This document shows, piece by piece, positions 1,417-22,190 of a DNA stretch of 29,029 nucleotides (position 1 is the first letter of the stretch; each line of letters starts with the position of its first letter). Source of the DNA: a virus; the IMG/VR virus record IMGVR_UViG_3300006737_000125, positions 1-29,029 of that record; one strand, given 5' to 3'. A program made the translations under genes and the position numbers. A model generated the notes under the pieces. The model made no database searches. It was given only the letters and a program-made list of their open reading frames with translations, and was not told the origin of the DNA.

Positions 1417-4400
1417 TTAGATGCCTGCAGCATCCAGTCTAGCTTTGAGCGCAGTATTTTCTGCAGACAGTTCCTGCACAGCTTTTACCAGCGGCATCAC
1501 GAACATCTCGTAGCTGATGCCTTGGATGTCTTCATTGTCAACAGTCCAACCAGCAAAGTCAGTGACGTTGTGATCATCTAAGGCTTGCTTTACCTCTTGA
1601 GCAATAAAGCCATACATCTTGTTGGTGTAGCTAGCTTCGGTCTTGCTTGCGTCGTAGCCGTACAAGTCGCTATCAAGCTCAGACGGTGCTTTCCATTTAT
1701 AAGTAACGGTTCTGAGGTCGTTAATAAAACCAAGACCCAAATCAGCATTGGTTTGAATGTCTTTCTTTAGGCGAACATCGGAGCTGCGAGTCCACGATGC
1801 GTTTGATGTGAACTGGTTGTAGACCCTGTTACCTGAGCTGCCAAAAGTAAAATAATTATCGCCTATAGCCGAAATGCTTGTACCGATTGTAATTGAATAT
1901 ACTTGGCTATTTGCAGCAGCGTCAGCGTTATAACCAACGCAAATATTTGAAGCGCCAGTAGTAATTGCGACACCCGCACCTTTGCCAATTGCAGTGTTGT
2001 TATTGCCAGTGGTGACGTTATAAAGAGCACTTAAACCAACCGCTGTGTTATTAATAGCACTGGTATTGTTATAAAGAGCTTCTTTTCCAAAGGCTGCGTT
2101 GCTGTGACCAGTTGTGTTGGTAAACAAAGCAGCACGTCCGGTAGCCGTATTATCTGAAGCAGTGGTGTTGTTATAAAGAGCAGCCCATCCAGCGGCGGTG
2201 TTTTTACTTCCAGTGGTGTTGCTATATAAAGCTTGATACCCATTAGCTGCACATTCAGCGCCAGTAGTGTTTGTATAAAAAGCTTTATATCCGACAACAC
2301 TATTAAAGCTGCCAGTAGTATTGTTAAAAGAAGATTGAGAACCGACCGTAACATTTCCCGTGCCAGTGGTGCTATAAACCAAAGAATTAAATCCAACAGC
2401 TACATTGTCAGATCCAGTGGTGTTAGCAGTAAGAGCACCTTGTCCTATGGCAGTGTTTTGATCAGCAGTAGTGTTTGCGTAAAGAGCTTTTCGTCCAACG
2501 GCTGTGTTGCTATCACCACTGACGCTGCTATAGAGAGCCTTAAACCCGATGGCTGTGTTGTTATCAGATTGGGTATTTGAATAAAGAGCTTGTCGCCCAA
2601 CAGCTACGTTGTTACCACCAATGGTGTTAGCCCAAAGAGCTTGGTAACCAATAGCTTCGTTGTTAGCGCCAGTGGTATTGGTATAAAGGGCTTGGTATCC
2701 AATGGCGTTATTTTGAGCACCAGTGGTGTTGTTATACAGGGCTCTATACCCGTGAGCGGCGTTGTTAGCAGCAGTAGTGTTGGATCCGAGAGCGCCTTCT
2801 CCGGTAGCTGTGTTTCTAATGCCAGTGGTGTTGGCAGTAAGAGCTAAGTATCCATTAGCCGTGTTATCAGAACCAGTAGTGTTGGCGTATAAAGCGTTAA
2901 ATCCGTTAGCTACGTTGTAATTACCAGTAGTGTTGCTATATAAAACTTGGGCTCCGTTAGCTGTGTTTCTAATGCCTGTGGTGTTGGAATAAATGGCTCG
3001 GTATCCGCTAGCTGTGTTCTCGACGCCAGTGGTGTTTGCCTGGAGAGCACTGCTTCCAGTAGCTGTGTTATTAGCTCCAGTGGTGTTTGCTTCTAAAGCT
3101 CTAAAACCGAGGGCAATGTTAGATGCACCTGTTGTATTTGCTTCTAACGCTTCTTGGCCGAACGCGCAGTTAAAATCAGCAGTGGTTGTATTTTCTCCAG
3201 CTAATGTGCCAAAAAAGCTATTGTTAGATCCCGTTGTAACTGATTTTCCAGCATGCTTACCAAAGGCACTGTTGCTGCCACCAGTGGTGTTTGAATCAAG
3301 CGCTTGTGAACCGACTGCAGTGTTACTGCTGCCAGTGGTGTTCTCTTCTAAAGCTTGATAACCCACAGCCGTATTATCGCCAGCGGTCGTATTCTTTTGC
3401 AGTGCTTCATTGCCAACTGCTACGTTATTGTTTCCTGTAGTTACTGTGTCTAAAGCGATATAACCGACGGCAACATTATGCGTTCCAGTGGTTAAGTTTG
3501 CTAAAGCATTGCTACCTAACGCTGTGTTTTCGCCCCCCGTAGTGCAATCGGTAAGAGCCGATCTGCCGACAGCAGTGTTGTTATCTGCAGTAGTGTTTGC
3601 ATCGAGAGCAAGATAACCAACGGATACGTTGCTAGCACCAGTGGTGTTTGCTCCAAGTGCATCTGCGCCAACAGCAACATTTTTTAAACCTGAAGTATTT
3701 GCATCTAGTGCGTTGTTGCCAACAACCGTGTTTGTCGCAACGTCACCCGCTCCACGGCCAACAGTGACCTCATGGATTAAGGCGTCTCCACCATCAACAT
3801 CAAGAAGTGCTGAAGGAGTTGCAGTAGAGATACCTACCCTGTCATTACCTGCATCTATGTGTAGAAGGTTGGCATCACCATTCCCTTCAACGCGGAAATC
3901 TAAATCATTACTTGCATCGTTAAATACAATTTCTGCGCTGCCAAACGAAGCACGCTCAACACCACCTGTCGTGATGATAATTTCATCAGACGCAGGACGT
4001 GCAAGGCCTGTGTTCGTATCTGACGTGAAAAAGATGCTTGGACTAGCAGCAGATCCGTCAGCAAAGCCACTGCTCAGACCAGTCGCACTAAATACACCAA
4101 CCTCAGTACCAGCACATGCAATGCCGATTTCATTAGCTGCTTTTGAGAAGAACCCAGTATCTTTGTCCGTGACGAAGGTGATAGAGGGCGCGGCGACACT
4201 GCCTGCCGGGAAATCAACACCTACATTGACATAATCAGCACCAGCAAGAATTACACCAAAGAAGCTTGCACCACCTGATGGTGCTGAGCTAAATACAATA
4301 TTACCGCCGCTAAGATTAAAACCTGATGAGCCTGTAGGATCAGGCTCTTGAATAACACCAGCGATTGAAATTAAACATTGCTGGGGGTTAATTGGTAAAG

Positions 4401-4527
4401 GTACAGGTGCTGCACCACCTACTTGTAGGGCAAAACTTGTAACACTGCCATTGAAAGAAGAACTAATATCATCAATGATCAGATAACTTTGAAAAGCTAC
4501 CTCAAGGTCGTTACCGATGTAAGCCAT
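1417..4527 (-). CDS. Large tail fibre with 17-residue repeats and C-terminal S74 chaperone
   Basis: A 1036-residue fibre. Residues 1-105 form the attachment-type N-terminus shared with the left-edge fibre. Residues ~110-260 are beta-rich spacers (SIFFTSDTNTGLARP, DFRVEGNG, GNDRVGIST). Residues 276-870 hold about 35 tandem 17-residue units of the type xNTTGxxNTAxGxxALx, resembling the left-handed parallel beta-roll heads of trimeric adhesins. Residues ~913-1036 are a Peptidase_S74 intramolecular chaperone: SDVRLKKDI, then YGFIAQEV, ISYEMFVMPLVKAVQEL and a C-terminal coiled coil. Ser916 and Lys921 have the five-residue spacing of the known S74 Ser-Lys dyad, so autocleavage just before Ser916 is expected after trimer folding. 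It most likely forms the long receptor-binding fibre. The start ATG gives MAYIGND, matching the paralogue. Confidence 0.92.
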   Translation of the reverse strand: MAYIGNDLEVAFQSYLIIDDISSSFNGSVTSFALQVGGAAPVPLPINPQQCLISIAGVIQEPDPTGSSGFNLSGGNIVFSSAPSGGASFFGVILAGADYVNVGVDFPAGSVAAPSITFVTDKDTGFFSKAANEIGIACAGTEVGVFSATGLSSGFADGSAASPSIFFTSDTNTGLARPASDEIIITTGGVERASFGSAEIVFNDASNDLDFRVEGNGDANLLHIDAGNDRVGISTATPSALLDVDGGDALIHEVTVGRGAGDVATNTVVGNNALDANTSGLKNVAVGADALGANTTGASNVSVGYLALDANTTADNNTAVGRSALTDCTTGGENTALGSNALANLTTGTHNVAVGYIALDTVTTGNNNVAVGNEALQKNTTAGDNTAVGYQALEENTTGSSNTAVGSQALDSNTTGGSNSAFGKHAGKSVTTGSNNSFFGTLAGENTTTADFNCAFGQEALEANTTGASNIALGFRALEANTTGANNTATGSSALQANTTGVENTASGYRAIYSNTTGIRNTANGAQVLYSNTTGNYNVANGFNALYANTTGSDNTANGYLALTANTTGIRNTATGEGALGSNTTAANNAAHGYRALYNNTTGAQNNAIGYQALYTNTTGANNEAIGYQALWANTIGGNNVAVGRQALYSNTQSDNNTAIGFKALYSSVSGDSNTAVGRKALYANTTADQNTAIGQGALTANTTGSDNVAVGFNSLVYSTTGTGNVTVGSQSSFNNTTGSFNSVVGYKAFYTNTTGAECAANGYQALYSNTTGSKNTAAGWAALYNNTTASDNTATGRAALFTNTTGHSNAAFGKEALYNNTSAINNTAVGLSALYNVTTGNNNTAIGKGAGVAITTGASNICVGYNADAAANSQVYSITIGTSISAIGDNYFTFGSSGNRVYNQFTSNASWTRSSDVRLKKDIQTNADLGLGFINDLRTVTYKWKAPSELDSDLYGYDASKTEASYTNKMYGFIAQEVKQALDDHNVTDFAGWTVDNEDIQGISYEMFVMPLVKAVQELSAENTALKARLDAAGI
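1918..3702 (-). repeat. About 35 tandem 51-bp coding repeats in the fibre gene
   Basis: Units of 17 codons run without a break from residue 276 to 870. The consensus is xNTTGxxNTAxGxxALx; the Gly and the first Asn/Thr positions are the most constant, while the two residues after TTG and the residues after the second Gly vary most. DNA copies have diverged (GTTNTA, AGTGGTGTT and AAGAGC words recur on the plus strand), so the array is old but still a substrate for unequal recombination that would change fibre length. Confidence 0.9.
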
Positions 4528-12687: not shown

Positions 12688-12965
12688 CGCGCTTGTATAG
12701 GTCTTTTGTTAAGAATAACAGGGGGAATGTTATCAGCGTAGGACCTCGTAACTTCCCGCATGTATGCAGGATTATTTAATTGAAAACGCGGATCATCTTC
12801 ACCTGTGTATGACACCACGAAATCACAGGGGCTGTGTTGTTCCTTTCGTGTCATGTTAAAAGGATCGCTAAATCCTGCAGTCTGCATCTGATAATCATTG
12901 TACATATTCCTGTATGTCACAGGAAATGATTGACTATAGCCAGGAACCGCAGCAAATCTCATCAT
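12675..12965 (-). CDS. Hypothetical protein (96 aa)
   Basis: 96 residues, rich in Tyr, Asn, Gln, Met and Arg (AVPGYSQSFPVTYRNMYNDYQMQ, NMTRKEQHSPCDFVVSYTG, NNPAYMREVTRSYADN). Starts with ATGA overlap on the transglycosylase gene and itself overlaps the next start by 13 nt, so it is part of a coupled cluster. I do not recognise it. The tyrosine and asparagine-rich make-up is typical of small capsid or tail fitting proteins, but that is weak evidence. Confidence 0.62.
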   Translation of the reverse strand: MMRFAAVPGYSQSFPVTYRNMYNDYQMQTAGFSDPFNMTRKEQHSPCDFVVSYTGEDDPRFQLNNPAYMREVTRSYADNIPPVILNKRPIQARWQA

Positions 12966-13600
12966 TTCATAAACTCTGGTGCTTTAAAAGCACCTTGCAA
13001 TAATTGCAATACATTTAAAGATTTAGGAGCTGCTGGGGTATCAAGAGTACGATTAATTCCTAAACCAGCTCCGCTCCTTCTTTTCTGAGCTTTGCTGACT
13101 GCTGTACGTGCTTTTTCCGAACTCTCAATGTCTACCGGAGGGGGTGCAGTTGGTTCTGGCATAGAAGAAGAGACTCCTGCTGCTTGCTGAGCACCAGGTA
13201 GATATTCTTTATACTTGCCACTCTTGTAAACAGACCAAGCCCCTAAACCTTGAGAGTCAAGAATTGATTTTGCTGCGCGGACATTTGTTTTGGGATCATA
13301 TAGCTCCTCATTTGCCTTCAAGCCTAAGTTGCGACGACGCTCAGCACCTAGCATGTAACCAGGCTCATCAATCATATTGATTTGATAAAGCCCAAAAGAG
13401 TAATCTCCGGTGCTCCTGTCAGGATTTAAAGCCTTAGGATTCAAGCCGGATTCAGCTTGACTAATCGCGACCATTGTCGGAATTAAATCTTCTTTTACAC
13501 CTTCTTGTCTAAGAAGCCCTGCAAGTTGTGACTGAGATACTGACTTCACGGTACTATCGATGATTGGTTTCGAGAATGAGACGGGTGCCGACAGCAACAT
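12962..13600 (-). CDS. Lytic transglycosylase (SLT/GH23-like)
   Basis: The core LLRQEGVKEDLIPTMVAISQAESGLNPKAL, broken only by normal turns, then GDYSFGLYQINM, YDPKTNVRAAKSIL and LGAWSVYKSGKY follows the lysozyme-like SLT fold: catalytic Glu in QAESG, the (Y)SFGLYQIN motif, and the NVRAA helix plus W-xxY-xxG end. It should cleave peptidoglycan between MurNAc and GlcNAc, either as a virion enzyme for DNA entry or as the endolysin. The C-terminal ~70 residues are disordered and Pro/basic rich. The start is uncertain: ATG 13600 (chosen), GTG 13549 four bases after the upstream stop, or a start at 13690. The longer forms would include RRFLALLMLLSAPVSFS, which looks like a signal sequence but lies in frame overlap with the connector gene. 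Confidence 0.8.
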   Translation of the reverse strand: MLLSAPVSFSKPIIDSTVKSVSQSQLAGLLRQEGVKEDLIPTMVAISQAESGLNPKALNPDRSTGDYSFGLYQINMIDEPGYMLGAERRRNLGLKANEELYDPKTNVRAAKSILDSQGLGAWSVYKSGKYKEYLPGAQQAAGVSSSMPEPTAPPPVDIESSEKARTAVSKAQKRRSGAGLGINRTLDTPAAPKSLNVLQLLQGAFKAPEFMK

Positions 13601-14033
13601 CAGCAGGGCCAGGAAGCGCCTGAATAAATTCTGCGCCTTCCCTGTTAAAACGGTAGCGGGCCTGCTCAGGATTTCGGTAATTAGGTACATATAAGTGCAA
13701 CGCCAAACGATCAGTCTCGTACATGTAAATCTGAGTCCACGTTTTCAACGTTTCTTTGAAATCTGTGGTTGCGATCGTACGATCGACATCACCAGCGATT
13801 GACTCAATTCGACCACGTGGCACCGTCGCGTTGTTCATGGTGCCAGTCATATCCGTGCGCTTCTCTGCCTCGTCACAACGCTCTACTTGCTCAACAATCT
13901 TGCCGTACCAAAAAGAGTCCGGAACGTTGTCCAAAGCCTCTTCTAAGCGGGCTAGATCACCTGCTGGGATTGATGTGGTGTTATACCCCAGGTGCCAACG
14001 CACTTTAGATTTTAGAAAATTATCAAGCTGCAT
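13554..14033 (-). CDS. Putative head-tail connector protein
   Basis: 159 residues: VRWHLGYNTTSIPAGDLARLEEALDNVPDSFW, then IVEQVERCDEAEKRTDM, IAGDVDRTIATTDFKETLKTWTQIYMYETDRLALHLYVPNYR and ARYRFNREGAEFIQALPGPADVAVGTRLIL, split by short loops. It is mostly helical with a strand-rich end, like adaptor proteins that sit under the portal. I recall the YHLGYN-TSIPAGD-x-RLEEA and LPGPADxxVGTRxxL motifs from structural genes of marine phages near the capsid genes. The position just after the capsid/HhH genes supports a head-completion role. It could also be a neck or tail-terminator protein. Confidence 0.7.
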   Translation of the reverse strand: MQLDNFLKSKVRWHLGYNTTSIPAGDLARLEEALDNVPDSFWYGKIVEQVERCDEAEKRTDMTGTMNNATVPRGRIESIAGDVDRTIATTDFKETLKTWTQIYMYETDRLALHLYVPNYRNPEQARYRFNREGAEFIQALPGPADVAVGTRLILETNHR

Positions 14034-14101: not shown

Positions 14102-14542
14102 TCACTCGACACGCACAATGTTTTCCTTGAAAATTTCTTCCCAATCAACACGTTTGATTGATCTTAATTGCTCAAGACGTTGAAAGCGCTCGCCTGGGAG
14201 AGTGAGCTGAAGATCTTTGATGTCACGAGCTGTTTTAAGACCGACACCAGGGATTGAATCTGCGATTTGTCGAGCAGAAGCCATATTGATATTCACTCGC
14301 GTATCAATTGGGAAGGTTTCCTTCTTTGTAGGCTTTGCTGGCTTTGCACCTTCAGCTTTGAGATTCTCAGTTAAGCGAACTTCATTACGCTCTTGCTCCA
14401 CCGTTGCATCTAGATGTGGAACGAGGTCGTCTTCATTAATGTAAAAAACTTCTTCGTTCGCATCCAGGCACATCAGAATACCTTCACCATGCTGAGATAC
14501 AACCTCGACAAGACCTCCAGTAACACGGTTCTGATACAACAT
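14102..14542 (-). CDS. Helix-hairpin-helix protein in the head operon
   Basis: 146 residues in two parts. Residues 1-45 are strand-rich (QNRVTGGLVEVVSQHGEGILM, then EEVFYINEDDLVPHL), like a small SH3-type barrel. A charged linker follows (KAEGAKPAKPTKKE). Residues ~83-111 (VNINMASARQIADSIPGVG, LKTARDIKDL) are a helix-hairpin-helix of the ComEA/RuvA type, with the N-x-A-[ST]-xx-x-L/I-xx-x-PGVG-xx-x-A-xx-I signature that binds DNA backbone without sequence specificity. The final part adds more helices (RLEQLRSIKRVDWEEIF). A DNA-binding protein placed directly after the capsid genes could contact the DNA end near the portal, but this is inference. Confidence 0.78.
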   Translation of the reverse strand: MLYQNRVTGGLVEVVSQHGEGILMCLDANEEVFYINEDDLVPHLDATVEQERNEVRLTENLKAEGAKPAKPTKKETFPIDTRVNINMASARQIADSIPGVGLKTARDIKDLQLTLPGERFQRLEQLRSIKRVDWEEIFKENIVRVE

Positions 14543-14560
14543 AGCGATAGACGATTACTG

Positions 14561-14570
14561 ATATAGCATA
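14561..14570 (-). promoter_or_regulatory. Possible extended -10 before the HhH gene
   Basis: TATGCTATAT on the minus strand, 19 nt before the ATG and just after the capsid-unit terminator. TGCTATAT resembles the TGCTATAAT in front of the capsid gene. No good -35. It would let the HhH/connector genes restart after the terminator. Confidence 0.35.
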
Positions 14571-14593
14571 CCAAAATTAATCTAAGTGGACAA

Positions 14594-14619
14594 TAAAAAG
14601 CGGGCCGTGAAGACCCGCT
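14594..14619 (-). terminator. Rho-independent terminator after the capsid unit
   Basis: Minus strand AGCGGG, a 9-nt loop, CCCGCT, then TTTTATT. It lies 23 nt after the stop of the 273-residue gene, the second member of the capsid unit. A strong GC-rich stem and U-tract make it convincing. Confidence 0.85.
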
Positions 14620-14641
14620 GTGTTGATATTGTGAGTAACGA

Positions 14642-15463
14642 TCAGGAATCGCTACCGCCCACTTGAGAGGCGAAGTCCAGGCTGCCAATGATATCCATGA
14701 AGGAAGTAGCAGCGGCAGGACGCAGGTAGTTAACGCGGCAGATGATGTAAGCAGCTTTACCGGCGTCCTTATCATCAGAGCTGATGAAGACACCGTCGCC
14801 GTCCACAGATGTGGAGGTCACAGCGTTGACGTTATACACCTTGAAGGTGGTGTCAGCAGTGACGCGGAACATCATGGCGTTTGCAGCATCCTGGTCGTCG
14901 ATACCGGCGGTGGTAACGGCGGTCCAGAAAGGTGCTTCTGCAACGGAAACATCGGATTCACCCTGGGCGATAGTGCCTGAGGAGAATGCTGTCGTGACGG
15001 CGGTTGCAGCAGCCAGACCGTTGGCCTGAGTTGCAGGAACGCCGAAAGGAGAACCACTGTTGTCGGGACCGAACAGCAGAATCTCGGTGTTGGTGCCGTC
15101 GATATCTGCAGTCAAAGGAGTAGCAGGATAGGAAGGCTCACCAGCGGAAGGGATGTCCTGGCCGATAGCAATCGAAGCGCTGTAAATGTAAGCGGGACGA
15201 TCAGCGTCAGCTTGAACAACCAGTGAAGTGCGGTCATCACGCACACGGTCGTCAGGACGACGGTCGGGTGAAGGAACCGTCAGGTTGAAGCTCTTGTTGT
15301 TGGCTTTGTCAGCAGTCAGGTTACTGACTTTGACATAACCAACCAGCTCGTAGAGCTCGAAGCCAGGCCAGCCAAAAACACCTTCGGTGTTATAGGAGGA
15401 CAGGCGATTGATTTGATTACCGGGCTGCAAAATTGCGCCCTTTTCAGCAGTGTAAGATGCCAT
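14642..15463 (-). CDS. Abundant structural protein partnered with the capsid protein
   Basis: 273 residues, no membrane segment, Asp/Ala/Thr-rich and strand-rich (LYELVGYVKVSNLTA, DRTSLVVQADADRPAYIYSASIAIGQ, TNTEILLFGPDNSGSPFGVP, TADTTFKVYNVNAVTSTSVDGDGVFIS, AAYIICRVNYLRPAA). A very strong ribosome site (AAAGGAGGT, 8 nt before ATG), C-ending codon preference like that of the capsid gene, and a terminator immediately after all point to a major virion component. A head decoration (cement) protein is the likely role; a major tail protein cannot be ruled out. I do not recognise a named family. Confidence 0.78.
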   Translation of the reverse strand: MASYTAEKGAILQPGNQINRLSSYNTEGVFGWPGFELYELVGYVKVSNLTADKANNKSFNLTVPSPDRRPDDRVRDDRTSLVVQADADRPAYIYSASIAIGQDIPSAGEPSYPATPLTADIDGTNTEILLFGPDNSGSPFGVPATQANGLAAATAVTTAFSSGTIAQGESDVSVAEAPFWTAVTTAGIDDQDAANAMMFRVTADTTFKVYNVNAVTSTSVDGDGVFISSDDKDAGKAAYIICRVNYLRPAAATSFMDIIGSLDFASQVGGSDS

Positions 15464-15482
15464 TAGTTACGTACCTCCTTTA

Positions 15483-16628
15483 TCACTCAGTAATGGTGAA
15501 GGCGGTGGTCACGAAGTCCTTATTCAGGTTCGCGAAACCGGCGTACAGCTGCCAAATCAAGATGATAAAGCGGCTGAAGTCGTCATTGTTGTTGATCAGG
15601 ACCTGAGCATTCGGGCCGCCGATACCAACACCGACTGCCTGAGGACCGAAGAACAATCCAGGAGGCGTCGAACGACCTGCAACAGCGCCAGAACCATCAC
15701 CGATGTCAACAGTTGCAGTTTTGCTTGGCATGTTGGTGGTCTCGAAGAAACGCACACCCTCGAACACGAAGCCGGAAGGCATGACGGGCTCTCCAGCCAC
15801 GAATTGTGCCTGGCCAAACTGACCGCCCTGGTACAGAGCAGCGTTAGGAGCAGACATACCCATTAGAGGGTTGGGGGCACCCATGCCAGGATAACGAGCC
15901 ACTTCACGGAAGCCCTGGTCAGCACGGAGGTCCTTCATGAAGGAAGGATCAGCGATACAACGGTAGTAACCGTCTTGGAACACAGGGACGTTGCGCTTAC
16001 GCAGGCTCTTAACAACGTTTAGAAGGTCCGTCTTAACGTTGAACTTGAAACGCTCAGAGGCGTATTCGGTTGCGGTATAGGCACCAACAGTGACACCAGT
16101 TTTGGTGTGGTCGTTTGGATAGTAGTAGCCGCCTTGGGTGTCGCCGGACTGGCCACGAGACTCAGCCTTGAACAGCTCGTCCAGGAACACACGATCGCGC
16201 CAACGACGATAGTCGTCAAGCAGGGTCAGTGAACCGATGGACTGGTGGAACATGTTAAGGTTCCCAGTGTCCAACAGAAGACGCTGAGCGGTCATCAGGG
16301 TCTCACGAGCAATCTTGAAGGTGCTCGGAAGATTGGTGTTATTTGGATCCGCAGGGCCGGTGTACTCACGCAGAGACACAAGCACCTTGTCTTTAACGAT
16401 GGAACGGCTGTTGGCAGTACCGATCGTTTGGTCTTGGGTACGCTCGCGGCTGGTCTTGGTGCCTGGGTTACCGAAGAAGCGGTAACGATCCAGCTGCACG
16501 GTTTGACCAGGCTGCTTGGTGAAGTCGTGGACTACAACGGGCTCGCAAGCCATCTCCACGACATAAGCTGGATGGGGACGGTATAGTTCCGCACCCAACA
16601 GCTTCGGAAAGTCGTTATCGATGAACAT
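15483..16628 (-). CDS. Major capsid protein
   Basis: 381 residues, in the right size range for a mature HK97-fold shell protein. Seen features: TVQLDRYRFFGNPG and DQTIGTANSRSIVKDKVLVSLREYTGP in the N-arm region, a helical middle (ARETLMTAQRLLLDTG), VVKSLRKRNVPVFQDGYYRCIADPSFMKDLRAD, GEPVMPSGFVFEGVRFFETTNMP near the A-domain, and a hydrophobic end with QLYAGFANLNKDFVTTAFTI. The plan (IADPS/THP-x-xxDLRxD, GxFxGVRFFExTN) reminds me of the N4-gp56 family of coat proteins, which infer the same HK97 fold. It follows the portal and scaffold-like genes, has a C-ending, high-expression codon bias, and is served by its own extended -10 promoter. Confidence 0.87.
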   Translation of the reverse strand: MFIDNDFPKLLGAELYRPHPAYVVEMACEPVVVHDFTKQPGQTVQLDRYRFFGNPGTKTSRERTQDQTIGTANSRSIVKDKVLVSLREYTGPADPNNTNLPSTFKIARETLMTAQRLLLDTGNLNMFHQSIGSLTLLDDYRRWRDRVFLDELFKAESRGQSGDTQGGYYYPNDHTKTGVTVGAYTATEYASERFKFNVKTDLLNVVKSLRKRNVPVFQDGYYRCIADPSFMKDLRADQGFREVARYPGMGAPNPLMGMSAPNAALYQGGQFGQAQFVAGEPVMPSGFVFEGVRFFETTNMPSKTATVDIGDGSGAVAGRSTPPGLFFGPQAVGVGIGGPNAQVLINNNDDFSRFIILIWQLYAGFANLNKDFVTTAFTITE

Positions 16629-17650: not shown

Positions 17651-17680
17651 AAAAAATTAGGGGCAGTTTCCTACCCCCTA
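17651..17680 (-). terminator. Terminator after the scaffold-like gene
   Basis: Minus strand TAGGGG, 11-nt loop, CCCCTA, then AA and TTTTTT. It lies 26 nt after the stop of the scaffold-like gene. The U-tract ends 8 nt before the next ATG, so it could also lower expression of that gene. Confidence 0.72.
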
Positions 17681-17705: not shown

Positions 17706-18704
17706 TCACTCCATCACCAGGAGCTTGTTGCGGAACACCTCAGGATTCTGCTGAGCAGAGTTCAGATAACGCCAGGCGTTAGAGGGGTCACGATCGGCTA
17801 GGTTGCCGAAGCTATTCCAGAAGTCACCAGCATTAGCGGCTGCTTGGGGCTGGGGAGGGATAGGCATCTGAGGACGGGCAGGCGCAGCTTGTTGCTGATA
17901 CTGCTGGCCTACTTGCTGAGCACCTTGAGGTGCGACAGGAGCGGCTTCATCAGGGATAGGATGAGGGCCGTTCGCGCCAAAGAACTCACAGGTGTAGTCA
18001 GCGAGCACGTCGGGGTCAGTCAGGATGGCTTCATAAGCCTTGTGCTCGTTAGAGAGCTCCTGTAGGAGTTCACAAGCTTGGATCAGTTGCTGATTGGTCT
18101 GGATTAGAGAATCCTCAACTGAGCAGGCATAATCATTGAGAACCTTGGGAACATCAGGACCAAAGTGGTCAATGATCTCAAGACTTGCTTCGCTTACTCC
18201 GTTTGCTCGGAGCTGCTCCGGGCTGATCTCCAGAGAAGTTAGGGAAGAGTCGTTGGAGAATGCCTGGTTGTTGTTGATCGAAGGCGAAGAGGTCTGCATC
18301 CCCAGGCTGCTGAATTGGGGAGCCTGTTGGGAACCGTAGCTGGCCGGGTCGATTGCCGGAGTCTGAGTCGATTGTTGACCCAGGGTTGGGAATTGGACGG
18401 GCGAACTCAGGAGCCCGACCACCTTGTTGAACGCTTCCCGATAAGGGTTCTCCGCTTGTGGAGTCGCCTGGTACGCCTGGGGCGCGGACTGAGTAGGGAG
18501 TGAGGCCTGCATCTGCGCTGCCATCTGGGCCGGCATTTGCGGGGCTGGGGCCGTCACTTGCTGGTATGGCGCCACCCATTGGGTATTCGTAGAAACCACC
18601 GGAGCCTGTGCCGCCGTCTGCGCTACCGGAGCCGCGTAGCTGGTCGGTTGGGTCGGGGATGTTTGGGGTGCCGATTGGGTCGGCATTGCGGTATCGGCCT
18701 GCAT
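17706..18704 (-). CDS. Scaffold-like protein overprinted on the portal gene
   Basis: 332 residues. Residues 1-150 are disordered, Gln/Pro/Ala-rich (APAPQMPAQMAAQMQASLP). Residues ~155-245 are helical (ISPEQLRANGVSEASLEIID, VEDSLIQTNQQLIQACELLQ, LSNEHKAYEAILTDPD). A second Gln/Pro-rich linker leads to a C-terminal segment DFWNSFGNLADRDPSNAWRY...FRNKLLVME. The disordered-helical-short C-terminal plan and the place between portal and capsid genes suggest a scaffolding or capsid-assembly protein. The start is well supported by AGAGGT 5 nt before the ATG, inside the portal frame. The first 527 nt lie in the +1 frame of the portal gene. No protease motif is visible. Confidence 0.8.
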   Translation of the reverse strand: MQADTAMPTQSAPQTSPTQPTSYAAPVAQTAAQAPVVSTNTQWVAPYQQVTAPAPQMPAQMAAQMQASLPTQSAPQAYQATPQAENPYREAFNKVVGLLSSPVQFPTLGQQSTQTPAIDPASYGSQQAPQFSSLGMQTSSPSINNNQAFSNDSSLTSLEISPEQLRANGVSEASLEIIDHFGPDVPKVLNDYACSVEDSLIQTNQQLIQACELLQELSNEHKAYEAILTDPDVLADYTCEFFGANGPHPIPDEAAPVAPQGAQQVGQQYQQQAAPARPQMPIPPQPQAAANAGDFWNSFGNLADRDPSNAWRYLNSAQQNPEVFRNKLLVME

Positions 18705-20436
18705 AAGTTACCTCTTTTTGTAGGCTTTCGAGTGTGCGATAAAGGAAGGGGGTGAGATCTAATCTCGGATCCGCAGCCATCGGAAGATTCGGTTGCTGCG
18801 GATGTGGTGTCCGCATTTCTTGATTTATAAGATCAATAAATGTGGAGTAAGCCCTCTGTACTTCCCCTACCACACGGAATGGGAAACCGGAGAGCATGCC
18901 CGCGATTTCGTCATCCGTTTTAGAAGGGAATAGATACTTCAGTGCTTCAATGCTATCAACACCTAACTCTTGCAAGTTTCTGGTGAAAATAGACTGGTTG
19001 AGTTTATCCTGTGTTGTATCTTCGTACACAGGTCCAAGCCAACGCCAAAGAACAGTTCTGTCACCGTCCGGGGCTAAACCAAGAACGCCTGGAGGCAGTT
19101 CCTGATTTTCAATTGCTGCGTCAATTGCAACTTGAAGTTTTTTCTCGTAACGAGCTTTTGATTTTTCGTATTTTTCAAGTGCTTTTTCGTCAACTTCTTC
19201 AGGCAAAACGGGATATTTAATCCCGCTCTCGTAAGCCATTGACTTACGGAAAATTTGTTCTTCTTGGAAGATAATCAGCTCGAGACAGCGGTTGATACCG
19301 TAGGTGTACAGCTGTAAGCATTTCTTCTTAGCTGTAGCACTGACTCGACCATAAGCCGATTTGTATTCAGTGGCAGTGACGTTGGTAATGCTGAGATCAT
19401 CAATACCACCAAGGGCTAATCGAATCTCACTGCGCAGTTGTTCAGCGAATCGAGCTTGATCCGTGCTGACTGCGTTCGGCGTAATAAAGCCGACCCTATC
19501 AGTAGGTTCTAGGTTCGCAATGACACGCGGAACACGCATGCCTGACCCAGGTTTGCCATTGTATCCAGGTGAGTCACGAGTGACATTGTCTTGCTTAAAC
19601 GTCGAGCTTGAAAGAAAGAAATCTGACTGAAAGCCTGACTGACTTGAAATACTTGGCCGCTGCGCTGGATCACTTGAGTCGTACTCAACAATGTCTTGCT
19701 TTGGGCGAGATGACAGTAACGTTGGGTTGCCAAAGAAAGAAAGGTTGGCCCTGATGTTCTTTACCATCTCATCGTGAGCGATGATTTGGTTAGCCATCAT
19801 GTCGAATTCGCCAGCGCCTTCAGTACCGAAAGCATCAGGGTTATTCAGAACCTCGACACATGGAATGAACTCCATGCTATTTTTCACCACCTTCTTGTCA
19901 GTGAAGGCGAAGTCCATTGCCTCGTTGTCAAACGAGATCTCTTGTTCGCTATGGTATTCCTCAATCTCCTCGGCAGTAATACGAAGACGCATATACCGCT
20001 TGTTTGTATTCAGGCCAACACCGCTAAACCCTTTTGACGTTTTGACTTTATACGGATAGATAATGATGACTTCTTCTAGGTCACCTTCGGGAGAGTAATA
20101 AGCACGATAAGAATCCCGATCAAACCAATAAATACGATAAGTTTTCTCAGTCGGTCGGATATAGAACAGGCCTTTACCGTAAGCCAGGAAACGTTCCCAG
20201 ATAGAGTCGAGCCGTGCATCGAGACGATTGAACTTAATGACTTGCTGGATAAAATCGTAGCGCTGCGTACCAAAGTTATCCTGCAGCGGATAAAACTCGA
20301 CGCCCTGCCTGATCCCAAACATTTTCATTTGGGAAAGGTGTGCGCTCACCAGCATGGTGTCCGCAGGGCCTGTACTATCGCGTGAAACTACCGATTTGAG
20401 GATAGAGTCAAGTTGAGATTTAGCACTATCGCCCAT
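18178..20436 (-). CDS. Portal protein
   Basis: 752 residues. Recognisable portal architecture: helical clip/stem region with QLRSEIRLALGGIDDLSITN, VTATEYKSAYGRVSATAKKK, a wing rich in strands (YRIYWFDRDSYRAYY, EEVIIIYPYKVKT), and FFGNPTLLSSRP. The helical EYKSAYGRV...RCLELIIFQEEQIFRK section fits the portal crown. After about residue 575 the sequence becomes a low-complexity Gly/Ser/Pro/Asp tail ending in a basic SKRSKRSKS. That whole tail overlaps the scaffold-like gene in another frame. Position after the large terminase is the standard phage order. The portal forms the 12-fold DNA channel of the head. Confidence 0.9.
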   Translation of the reverse strand: MGDSAKSQLDSILKSVVSRDSTGPADTMLVSAHLSQMKMFGIRQGVEFYPLQDNFGTQRYDFIQQVIKFNRLDARLDSIWERFLAYGKGLFYIRPTEKTYRIYWFDRDSYRAYYSPEGDLEEVIIIYPYKVKTSKGFSGVGLNTNKRYMRLRITAEEIEEYHSEQEISFDNEAMDFAFTDKKVVKNSMEFIPCVEVLNNPDAFGTEGAGEFDMMANQIIAHDEMVKNIRANLSFFGNPTLLSSRPKQDIVEYDSSDPAQRPSISSQSGFQSDFFLSSSTFKQDNVTRDSPGYNGKPGSGMRVPRVIANLEPTDRVGFITPNAVSTDQARFAEQLRSEIRLALGGIDDLSITNVTATEYKSAYGRVSATAKKKCLQLYTYGINRCLELIIFQEEQIFRKSMAYESGIKYPVLPEEVDEKALEKYEKSKARYEKKLQVAIDAAIENQELPPGVLGLAPDGDRTVLWRWLGPVYEDTTQDKLNQSIFTRNLQELGVDSIEALKYLFPSKTDDEIAGMLSGFPFRVVGEVQRAYSTFIDLINQEMRTPHPQQPNLPMAADPRLDLTPFLYRTLESLQKEVTYAGRYRNADPIGTPNIPDPTDQLRGSGSADGGTGSGGFYEYPMGGAIPASDGPSPANAGPDGSADAGLTPYSVRAPGVPGDSTSGEPLSGSVQQGGRAPEFARPIPNPGSTIDSDSGNRPGQLRFPTGSPIQQPGDADLFAFDQQQPGILQRLFPNFSGDQPGAAPSKRSKRSKS

Positions 20437-20660: not shown

Positions 20661-22190
20661 TCAATACTCTAACTCTAGTTTTCCCCTTGTCATTAGTCCA
20701 TTACATAACCAGACAAGGGCGTCAACACAGTCATCATGGGATGAAACTCCGAAGTTAACGATTTCATCTTTTAGTGCCTGGAATTTTCTGTACTTATTGA
20801 AGATTAGCTTGCGTTGCTCAAATAGCCCCATAATGCCACGGAAGCGTGCGACCTTGTCCCCTCTAAACCCTTTGACTGCGTGCCAGTTCATGTTGTAGAG
20901 ACCATGTTCACCGAGACATATTCGTTTGAAGTCAGCCTCCAGTGAAGCCTGGTATGCAACGGCTTCTGACCAAATTTCGATGTTGGTGCCAGTAGGAAAA
21001 TATTGATTCTTTTCTTTGTGCACGACACCCCATTCTTCCATCATCTCCATCATGGCTTCTAATTTTTCTAAGTTACCCATAATCCTTAAACGTTTACAGT
21101 CGATAATGTGTATCTTCCCTCCCACTCGCCCTCCCATCACGAAGGCGGTATAGTCGTTTCGTTCTCGAACACCTGCGGAAAGGTCAACGCCGATTCCTAA
21201 ACAATCGAATTGTGTTTCGATGGTTCCTTTGATAATTAGATCAGGAGAAAGCGAAAGCTCGCTCGTTTGTACAACTTGATTTTGGTACTGAAAAGAAAAA
21301 GCGATTGGTGCCTGCCGCCGGCGGTCGCGCAGATAATCGAGTGACCACATAGCCGGCCAATATGATTGTTCATCACCATTTGCATCAACAGAAATCGCGG
21401 ATTGGACGATCTGTACCCAGTTGTTGGCTGGAATGAATGTGGAGTTATGGATATCGTCATGACGGAAGCGGGTGCCAAGACAGATCGCCCTGCCGCCTTG
21501 GAACATCGTCGGAACGATGACTGAATTCCAGTTGTCCTCCATCGCTTGCCGGATATCCCGGTTCTTGATGTCGTCAGCACTCTTGATAGCGTCATCAATG
21601 ATGCAAAGATGTGAACGCTTGGAGGTCACAGCGCCCTTAAGACCTGCACAACACACAGTGAATTCTTCTTCACCTGCTGTTCGGATGCCAGCAAACTTCC
21701 AATCAATACTCCAGTACTCGTTCGAATTAATCCCCTTGGCGATCTTTACAGTAGGGAAGATCTCCTTATAAGCTTTACTCGATTCAATGATCCTTTTAAT
21801 AGCTGCGCTTTTAGGACGTGCCACATCCACCGTGTAGGAGATGTAGAGGATTTTCAAAGGTTTCCGCGCCAGTGCATGAATACCAACCGCCCATGCTGTG
21901 TACAAGCCAAGGATCGTGGACTTCGCACTACCCCGTGGCGCCAAGATATCAATATTTGGTCCGCCAATACCAATCAAACATTCACTGTCCTCCCCTGTAC
22001 AAAGATATTTATGCCATTCTTTATGATGCTCAGCAGGTGGTTTATCACCTACGACATCACAGAAATATGCAAAATCCTTTCGTGCACGTTCAATATCAAT
22101 ATTTGAAGTCTTCTTAACAATCCGTTGCTGTGCTGCAGCACGTGCAGTCCTTCGATATACGCTATGAATACTTGTTCCTGCCATGCACAA
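20661..22190 (-). CDS. terL: Terminase large subunit
   Basis: 509 residues. ATPase: LAPRGSAKST at residues 83-92 (Walker A), HLCIIDD at 194-200 (Walker B, with DD in place of DE), and ICLGTRF at 236-242 as coupling motif. Nuclease (RNase H-like): Asp336 in GIGVDLSAG, Glu409 in EIWSEAVAYQ, and Asp486/Asp487/Asp490 in HDDCVDALVW. All the expected acids are present. It cuts concatemeric DNA and drives it through the portal. Two close ATGs exist (MCMAG); the first is used here. It is preceded by the 137-residue gene and a putative small subunit, and followed by the AbrB-like gene and the portal. Confidence 0.95.
   Translation of the reverse strand: MCMAGTSIHSVYRRTARAAAQQRIVKKTSNIDIERARKDFAYFCDVVGDKPPAEHHKEWHKYLCTGEDSECLIGIGGPNIDILAPRGSAKSTILGLYTAWAVGIHALARKPLKILYISYTVDVARPKSAAIKRIIESSKAYKEIFPTVKIAKGINSNEYWSIDWKFAGIRTAGEEEFTVCCAGLKGAVTSKRSHLCIIDDAIKSADDIKNRDIRQAMEDNWNSVIVPTMFQGGRAICLGTRFRHDDIHNSTFIPANNWVQIVQSAISVDANGDEQSYWPAMWSLDYLRDRRRQAPIAFSFQYQNQVVQTSELSLSPDLIIKGTIETQFDCLGIGVDLSAGVRERNDYTAFVMGGRVGGKIHIIDCKRLRIMGNLEKLEAMMEMMEEWGVVHKEKNQYFPTGTNIEIWSEAVAYQASLEADFKRICLGEHGLYNMNWHAVKGFRGDKVARFRGIMGLFEQRKLIFNKYRKFQALKDEIVNFGVSSHDDCVDALVWLCNGLMTRGKLELEY

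Follow-up and report, generated by a model that had tools for sequence, protein, structure and literature searches.

Do two head-assembly genes of a phage read the same 527 nt in different frames? The question is raised by IMGVR_UViG_3300006737_000125, a 29,029-base IMG/VR virus contig that was analysed over its whole length and is referred to here as the window. In the overlap (18178–18704), the final 175 codons of the portal gene share their DNA with the initial 175 of a scaffold-like gene, whose frame is +1 relative to the portal frame, one base downstream. The inner gene begins at portal codon 578 with an ATG (18704–18702), and a Shine-Dalgarno sequence, AGAGGT, lies 5 nt before it. A preliminary description of this DNA had reported this ribosome-binding site and a G+C content above that of the surroundings, and both were borne out. 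The G+C content reached 61.1% in the overlap; the window as a whole had 47.0%, the portal core 46.1% and the part of the scaffold gene outside the overlap 54.3%. The head and packaging genes around the overlap were all on the minus strand, in the order terminase large subunit, portal, scaffold-like gene, small genes, major capsid:

20661–22190, minus strand: terminase large subunit gene (PHROG 38, Pfam PF17289)
18178–20436, minus strand: portal gene, 752 aa (PHROG 20475; Foldseek matches to portals; low-confidence tail)
17706–18704, minus strand: scaffold-like gene, 332 aa, ATG start, acidic product (from its position between the portal and capsid genes and from predicted helices)
18178–18704, minus strand: overlap of 527 nt, both frames putatively coding (openness in relatives; purifying selection in four clades)
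18710–18715, minus strand: Shine-Dalgarno AGAGGT of the inner gene, within portal codons (sequence; conserved context)
18708–18710, minus strand: TAA stop in frame with the scaffold-like gene, two codons upstream of its ATG (sequence)
18408–18449, minus strand: scaffold-frame motif NPYREAFNKVVGLL within the overlap, predicted helix 89–100 (conserved in four clades)
18376–18411, minus strand: portal-frame motif PEFARPIPNPGS within the overlap (E, P and G positions kept in four clades)
18181–18207, minus strand: basic end of the portal tail, SKRSKRSKS (sequence)
15483–16628, minus strand: major capsid protein gene (PHROG 1357 major head protein, E 2.6e-16)

By gene order, the portal gene was located between the terminase gene and the scaffold-like and capsid genes. 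The structure model of its product was of low confidence (mean pLDDT 44.7), and all 23 Foldseek matches of this model in the PDB at E ≤ 0.001 were portal proteins or portal complexes (best 1.0e-7). The earlier assignment of the protein as a portal is supported by these fold matches, on which its identity rests. A PDB sequence search with profiles of the portal and scaffold-like proteins gave no convincing match. Directly past the stop of the scaffold-like gene, a terminator-like stem with a T run was observed (17659–17678, minus strand), which may end or thin the portal–scaffold transcript. Elsewhere in the window, short NTTG-type repeats were seen by eye to form a long array in a 1036-aa protein (1417–4527, minus strand), whose C-terminal segment resembled a tail-fibre chaperone domain. 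The ORFs at 12962–13690 (lysozyme-like) and 13554–14033 overlapped by 137 nt in different frames (13554–13690, minus strand); the start of the ORF 12962–13690 may have been annotated too far upstream.

Whether a second open frame could arise by chance was assessed by random synonymous recoding with the codon usage of the window. Recoding of the scaffold half introduced a mean of 10.5 stops into the portal frame, which did not stay open in any of the 20,000 trials. When the portal tail was recoded, the scaffold frame was open in 16.5% of the trials. Because of the latter value, openness in a single sequence is insufficient as proof of two genes, and the case for them therefore rests on the comparison of relatives. 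The same value favours the view that only one frame is translated, the other being open by chance, and that the second gene starts past the portal stop. This is how it is annotated in Synechococcus phage S-EIV1, whose record lists only the 3′ part of the second gene (14327–14728 of locus L082). The recoding of the scaffold half, which never left the portal frame open, speaks against this view, as does the comparison of relatives below.

Relatives were obtained by portal searches of IMG/VR, 584 with the portal of the window and at least 598 with that of S-EIV1. S-EIV1 (KJ410740) was the only full-length portal match among phage isolates. Its portal and capsid proteins were 51% and 71% identical to those of the window, and it had the same +1 overlap, 554 nt long, with the same start context. 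Further phage-like contigs, some of them with only 42–55% identity, came from scanning the genome contigs of bacteria and archaea, and from these two additional clades were seeded. The portal cores of the resulting four clades were 45–62% identical to one another. Some of the contigs with phage genes (L171, L173–L178) were binned as Bacteroidetes, Euryarchaeota, Crocinitomicaceae and Blastopirellula; since these bins are so different, this suggests misbinned phage contigs rather than true hosts.

The same +1 register with both frames open was found in 552 of 554 evaluable relatives (416/416 and 136/138, the latter set including loci sampled solely through a conserved portal motif). In the same 416/416 and 136/138 loci the second frame spanned the portal stop and contained the scaffold match. 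Some loci repeat one contig, and the relatives comprised 402 distinct portal 3′ ends. The open span of the overlap ranged from 452 to 680 nt. Both exceptions were frame-broken metagenome contigs. In L452, the portal and capsid genes were broken by several frameshifts, while in L491 one deletion in the overlap, around 3580–3600 in reverse-complement coordinates, swapped both frames at once. The L491 deletion joins each frame to the downstream half of the other and may reflect either a fault in assembly or a defective genome. The scans of viral contigs by portal queries or portal motif, and the scan of genome contigs, turned up no intact relative that lacks the overlap. Homologues with one frame interrupted had been proposed as the finding that would speak against two genes; the search for them returned these two broken contigs, and the claim stands. 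Since its portal and capsid genes are ordered as in S-EIV1 and encode homologous proteins, the phage of the window is assigned to the S-EIV1-like lineage. Judged from the sequences sampled, the overlap is common to a widespread group of aquatic viruses related to this cyanobacterial phage.

Synonymous and non-synonymous change in both frames, a check suggested in the preliminary description, was compared in the closest independent sequence pairs of each clade. Each difference and each possible change was classed as synonymous or not in each frame, with transition/transversion weighting and bootstrapping over codons. In the overlap, dNN/dNS of the scaffold frame was 0.27, 0.31, 0.41 and 0.38 in clades 1–4, and dNN/dSN of the portal frame was 0.49, 0.59, 0.54 and 0.52. 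All 95% intervals were below 1, in both frames and all four clades. Single-coding DNA served as the control: in the portal core, the scaffold-frame ratio was 0.99, 1.02, 0.94 and 1.00 in clades 1–4, and in the scaffold gene outside the overlap, portal-frame dNS/dSS was 1.12, 1.11, 1.23 and 1.19. Imperfect controls were dSN/dSS in the clade 4 portal core (0.75) and portal-frame dNN/dSN in the single-coding part of the scaffold gene (1.6–2.5), the latter because its denominator draws on the scaffold codon positions under the strongest constraint. Changes that are synonymous for the portal and nonsynonymous for the scaffold occurred at a rate of 0.22 in the core versus 0.04 in the overlap for clade 1, and 0.24 versus 0.05 for clade 2, a comparison less strict than the ratios, with pairs picked separately per region. 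The substitution pattern indicates that both frames of the overlap are under purifying selection in every clade, and that the unused frame is near neutral in the flanking single-coding regions.

The selection on both frames in four clades with near-neutral controls, together with the conserved start, Shine-Dalgarno sequence and N-terminal motifs, makes translation of a single frame extremely improbable. The 527-nt overlap of two genes reported in the preliminary description is confirmed by the open frames in 552 of the 554 relatives and by the substitution evidence in four clades. We consider it very probable that this is a true overprint in the sampled S-EIV1-like lineage, in which the portal tail and the N-terminus of the scaffold-like protein share DNA and are initiated independently.

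The inner Shine-Dalgarno sequence is written in Lys-Glu codons of the portal. It was strong in clade 1 (start context CAAAAAGAGGTAAC(C/T)T-ATG), clade 2 (CAAAAGGAGATGAG(T/C)T-ATG) and clade 4 (AAGGAG(T/C)TAAGTTACA-GTG), and weaker in clade 3. The Glu codon at this site was GAG in every portal of clades 1, 2 and 4 (282 of 282; cores: 33–44% GAG), a count that is inflated by relatedness and that holds separately in the three clades. In the scaffold frame, a TAA or TGA was located two codons upstream of the start in all loci of clades 1 and 2 and in most of clade 3, and three codons upstream in clade 4; in a few members of clade 3 the upstream stop was farther away. Promoter-like sites near the overlap were no more frequent than expected by chance.

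It had also been proposed that a frameshift in the overlap could make a portal–scaffold fusion, and a +1 shift anywhere in the overlap would indeed join the portal to the scaffold frame. However, nearly all relatives share an in-frame stop two or three codons upstream of the inner start, which argues against such a fusion and for independent internal initiation. Nucleotide conservation was highest at the start site or where conserved amino-acid motifs are encoded, and no slippery site was recognised among the most conserved nucleotides of the overlap. Selection acted along both full frames, and the RNA around the inner start, folded as that stretch alone, was ordinary and no better than shuffles (z −0.83). 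The proposed fusion is not supported by these results, and a programmed frameshift as the function of the overlap is very unlikely.

Under independent initiation, one polycistronic mRNA would carry the portal and scaffold-like genes. Ribosomes would enter at the inner Shine-Dalgarno sequence without depending on completion of the portal, because the portal stop lies 527 nt further downstream. Ribosomes translating the portal would have to cross the inner start site, so the protein ratio, which the preliminary description suggested the overlap could fix, may depend on the strength of the Shine-Dalgarno sequence.

The strongly conserved portal domain ended at about residue 583, six codons after the inner start. 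The portal gene would thus extend past its conserved domain into a basic-ended tail of approximately 170 residues. The scaffold-like gene would start inside it, in the +1 frame and with its own ribosome-binding site in portal codons, so that the 175-residue N-terminal part of the scaffold-like protein and the portal tail would come from the same DNA. Both segments had been described as flexible, in line with their low confidence in the structure models, and the portal tail is probably disordered. Within the overlap, the motif E.....(P)..G of the portal frame and the motif NP(W/Y)..AF of the scaffold frame were kept across four clades. The basic portal end noted earlier recurred, as the last 20 residues were net positive on average in every clade, and the end was basic in all representatives shown except L427, which has a shorter one.

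Evidence on which of the frames is older leaned in two directions. The codon usage of the scaffold half was about as atypical as that of the portal tail in clades 1 and 2 and more atypical in clades 3 and 4, which leans towards the portal tail being older. That the inner start lies where the conserved portal domain ends suggests instead a portal that was read through into an existing scaffold gene. The portals of phages T7 and P-SSP7 (536 and 522 aa) end before the scaffold gene or within one base of it; no alignment tying their ends to that of the present portal was found by sequence comparison. Saving space is an unlikely motive for the overlap, since the S-EIV1 genome is 79 kb. Once present, the arrangement would persist because neither tail would be free to change without altering the other.

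The identity of the second protein as a scaffold is plausible, based on its position, its acidity and its predicted helices. Like its S-EIV1 counterpart, the gene was located between the portal and major capsid genes. Its product was acidic (clade-mean pI 4.15–4.23; clade 1 mean 4.18), and its structure model, of low confidence overall and in the N-terminal half, predicted helices at residues 185–229, 231–245 and 292–331. These features would fit the earlier designation as scaffold-like; neither sequence nor fold matches gave it support. The protein had no family match in PHROGs or Pfam, no convincing match in the PDB and no sequence match to gp9 of T7 or P-SSP7. Scaffolds diverge fast, and sequence similarity to a known scaffold is not a required feature. 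With both frames real, the second protein might also be another head protein, such as an internal head protein, a decoration protein or an assembly factor. Such a protein would fit the lack of a sequence match to known families and to the scaffolds of T7 and P-SSP7, as well as the presence of small uncharacterised genes between the portal and capsid genes of the window. Since the gene comes immediately after the portal gene, an order also seen in T7 and P-SSP7, and the protein is scaffold-sized and acidic with predicted C-terminal helices, we regard this alternative as unlikely.

If the second protein is a scaffold, both products of the overlap would act in procapsid assembly. Portal C-termini usually point inward, into the capsid. 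With an acidic second protein and a basic portal end, this makes a contact between portal and scaffold a reasonable idea. Our tentative suggestion, which we hold to be possible rather than probable, is a binding contact at procapsid initiation between the basic, flexible tail of the portal and the strongly acidic scaffold, with one DNA encoding both of its sides. If true, contact between partner tails would tie portal and scaffold together across an old phage lineage. The overlap also allows the idea that interacting partners are encoded by overlapping genes to be tested concretely, and the approximately 400 distinct sequences are a large natural data set on two proteins evolving in one DNA.

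The annotation of S-EIV1 and of many uncultured relatives changes with this result. In the S-EIV1 record only the 3′ part of the second gene is annotated (AHV82225), so that 192 codons are missing and the full overlap was missed. Separately, the major capsid homologue of S-EIV1 was found to be the ORF 15323–16474 (plus strand) of L082, in the region L082:15248–16474 (KJ410740 60784–62010), where an antisense CDS (AHV82227) and a short 3′ piece (AHV82228) are annotated instead.

In virus genomes, the median length of same-strand +1 overlaps is 14 nt (PMC8903798). An overlap of about 450–640 nt shared by two head-assembly genes, with its register kept in four diverged clades, is therefore unusual. 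No report of a portal–scaffold overprint was found in a partial literature search, with the S-EIV1 genome paper outside it. Long out-of-frame overlaps and nested scaffolds are already known kinds. In T7 and P-SSP7, the portal gene (gene 8) is followed by the scaffold gene (gene 9) and then the capsid gene, as here, and T7 gp8 was a fold match to the portal of the window; no sequence link to the portal or scaffold proteins of either phage was found. The portal and scaffold genes are 99 nt apart in T7 and overlap by 1 nt in P-SSP7, compared with 527 nt here. In phiX174, gene B, which encodes the internal scaffold, is overprinted out of frame within gene A. Like the window, phiX174 thus carries a scaffold gene out of frame on another gene, but it is a small single-stranded DNA phage with unrelated proteins, and B lies wholly inside A. 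In lambda Nu3/C and similar systems, the scaffold is made from an internal start in the upstream head gene, in the same frame and with shared amino acids, whereas the pair in the window is out of frame.
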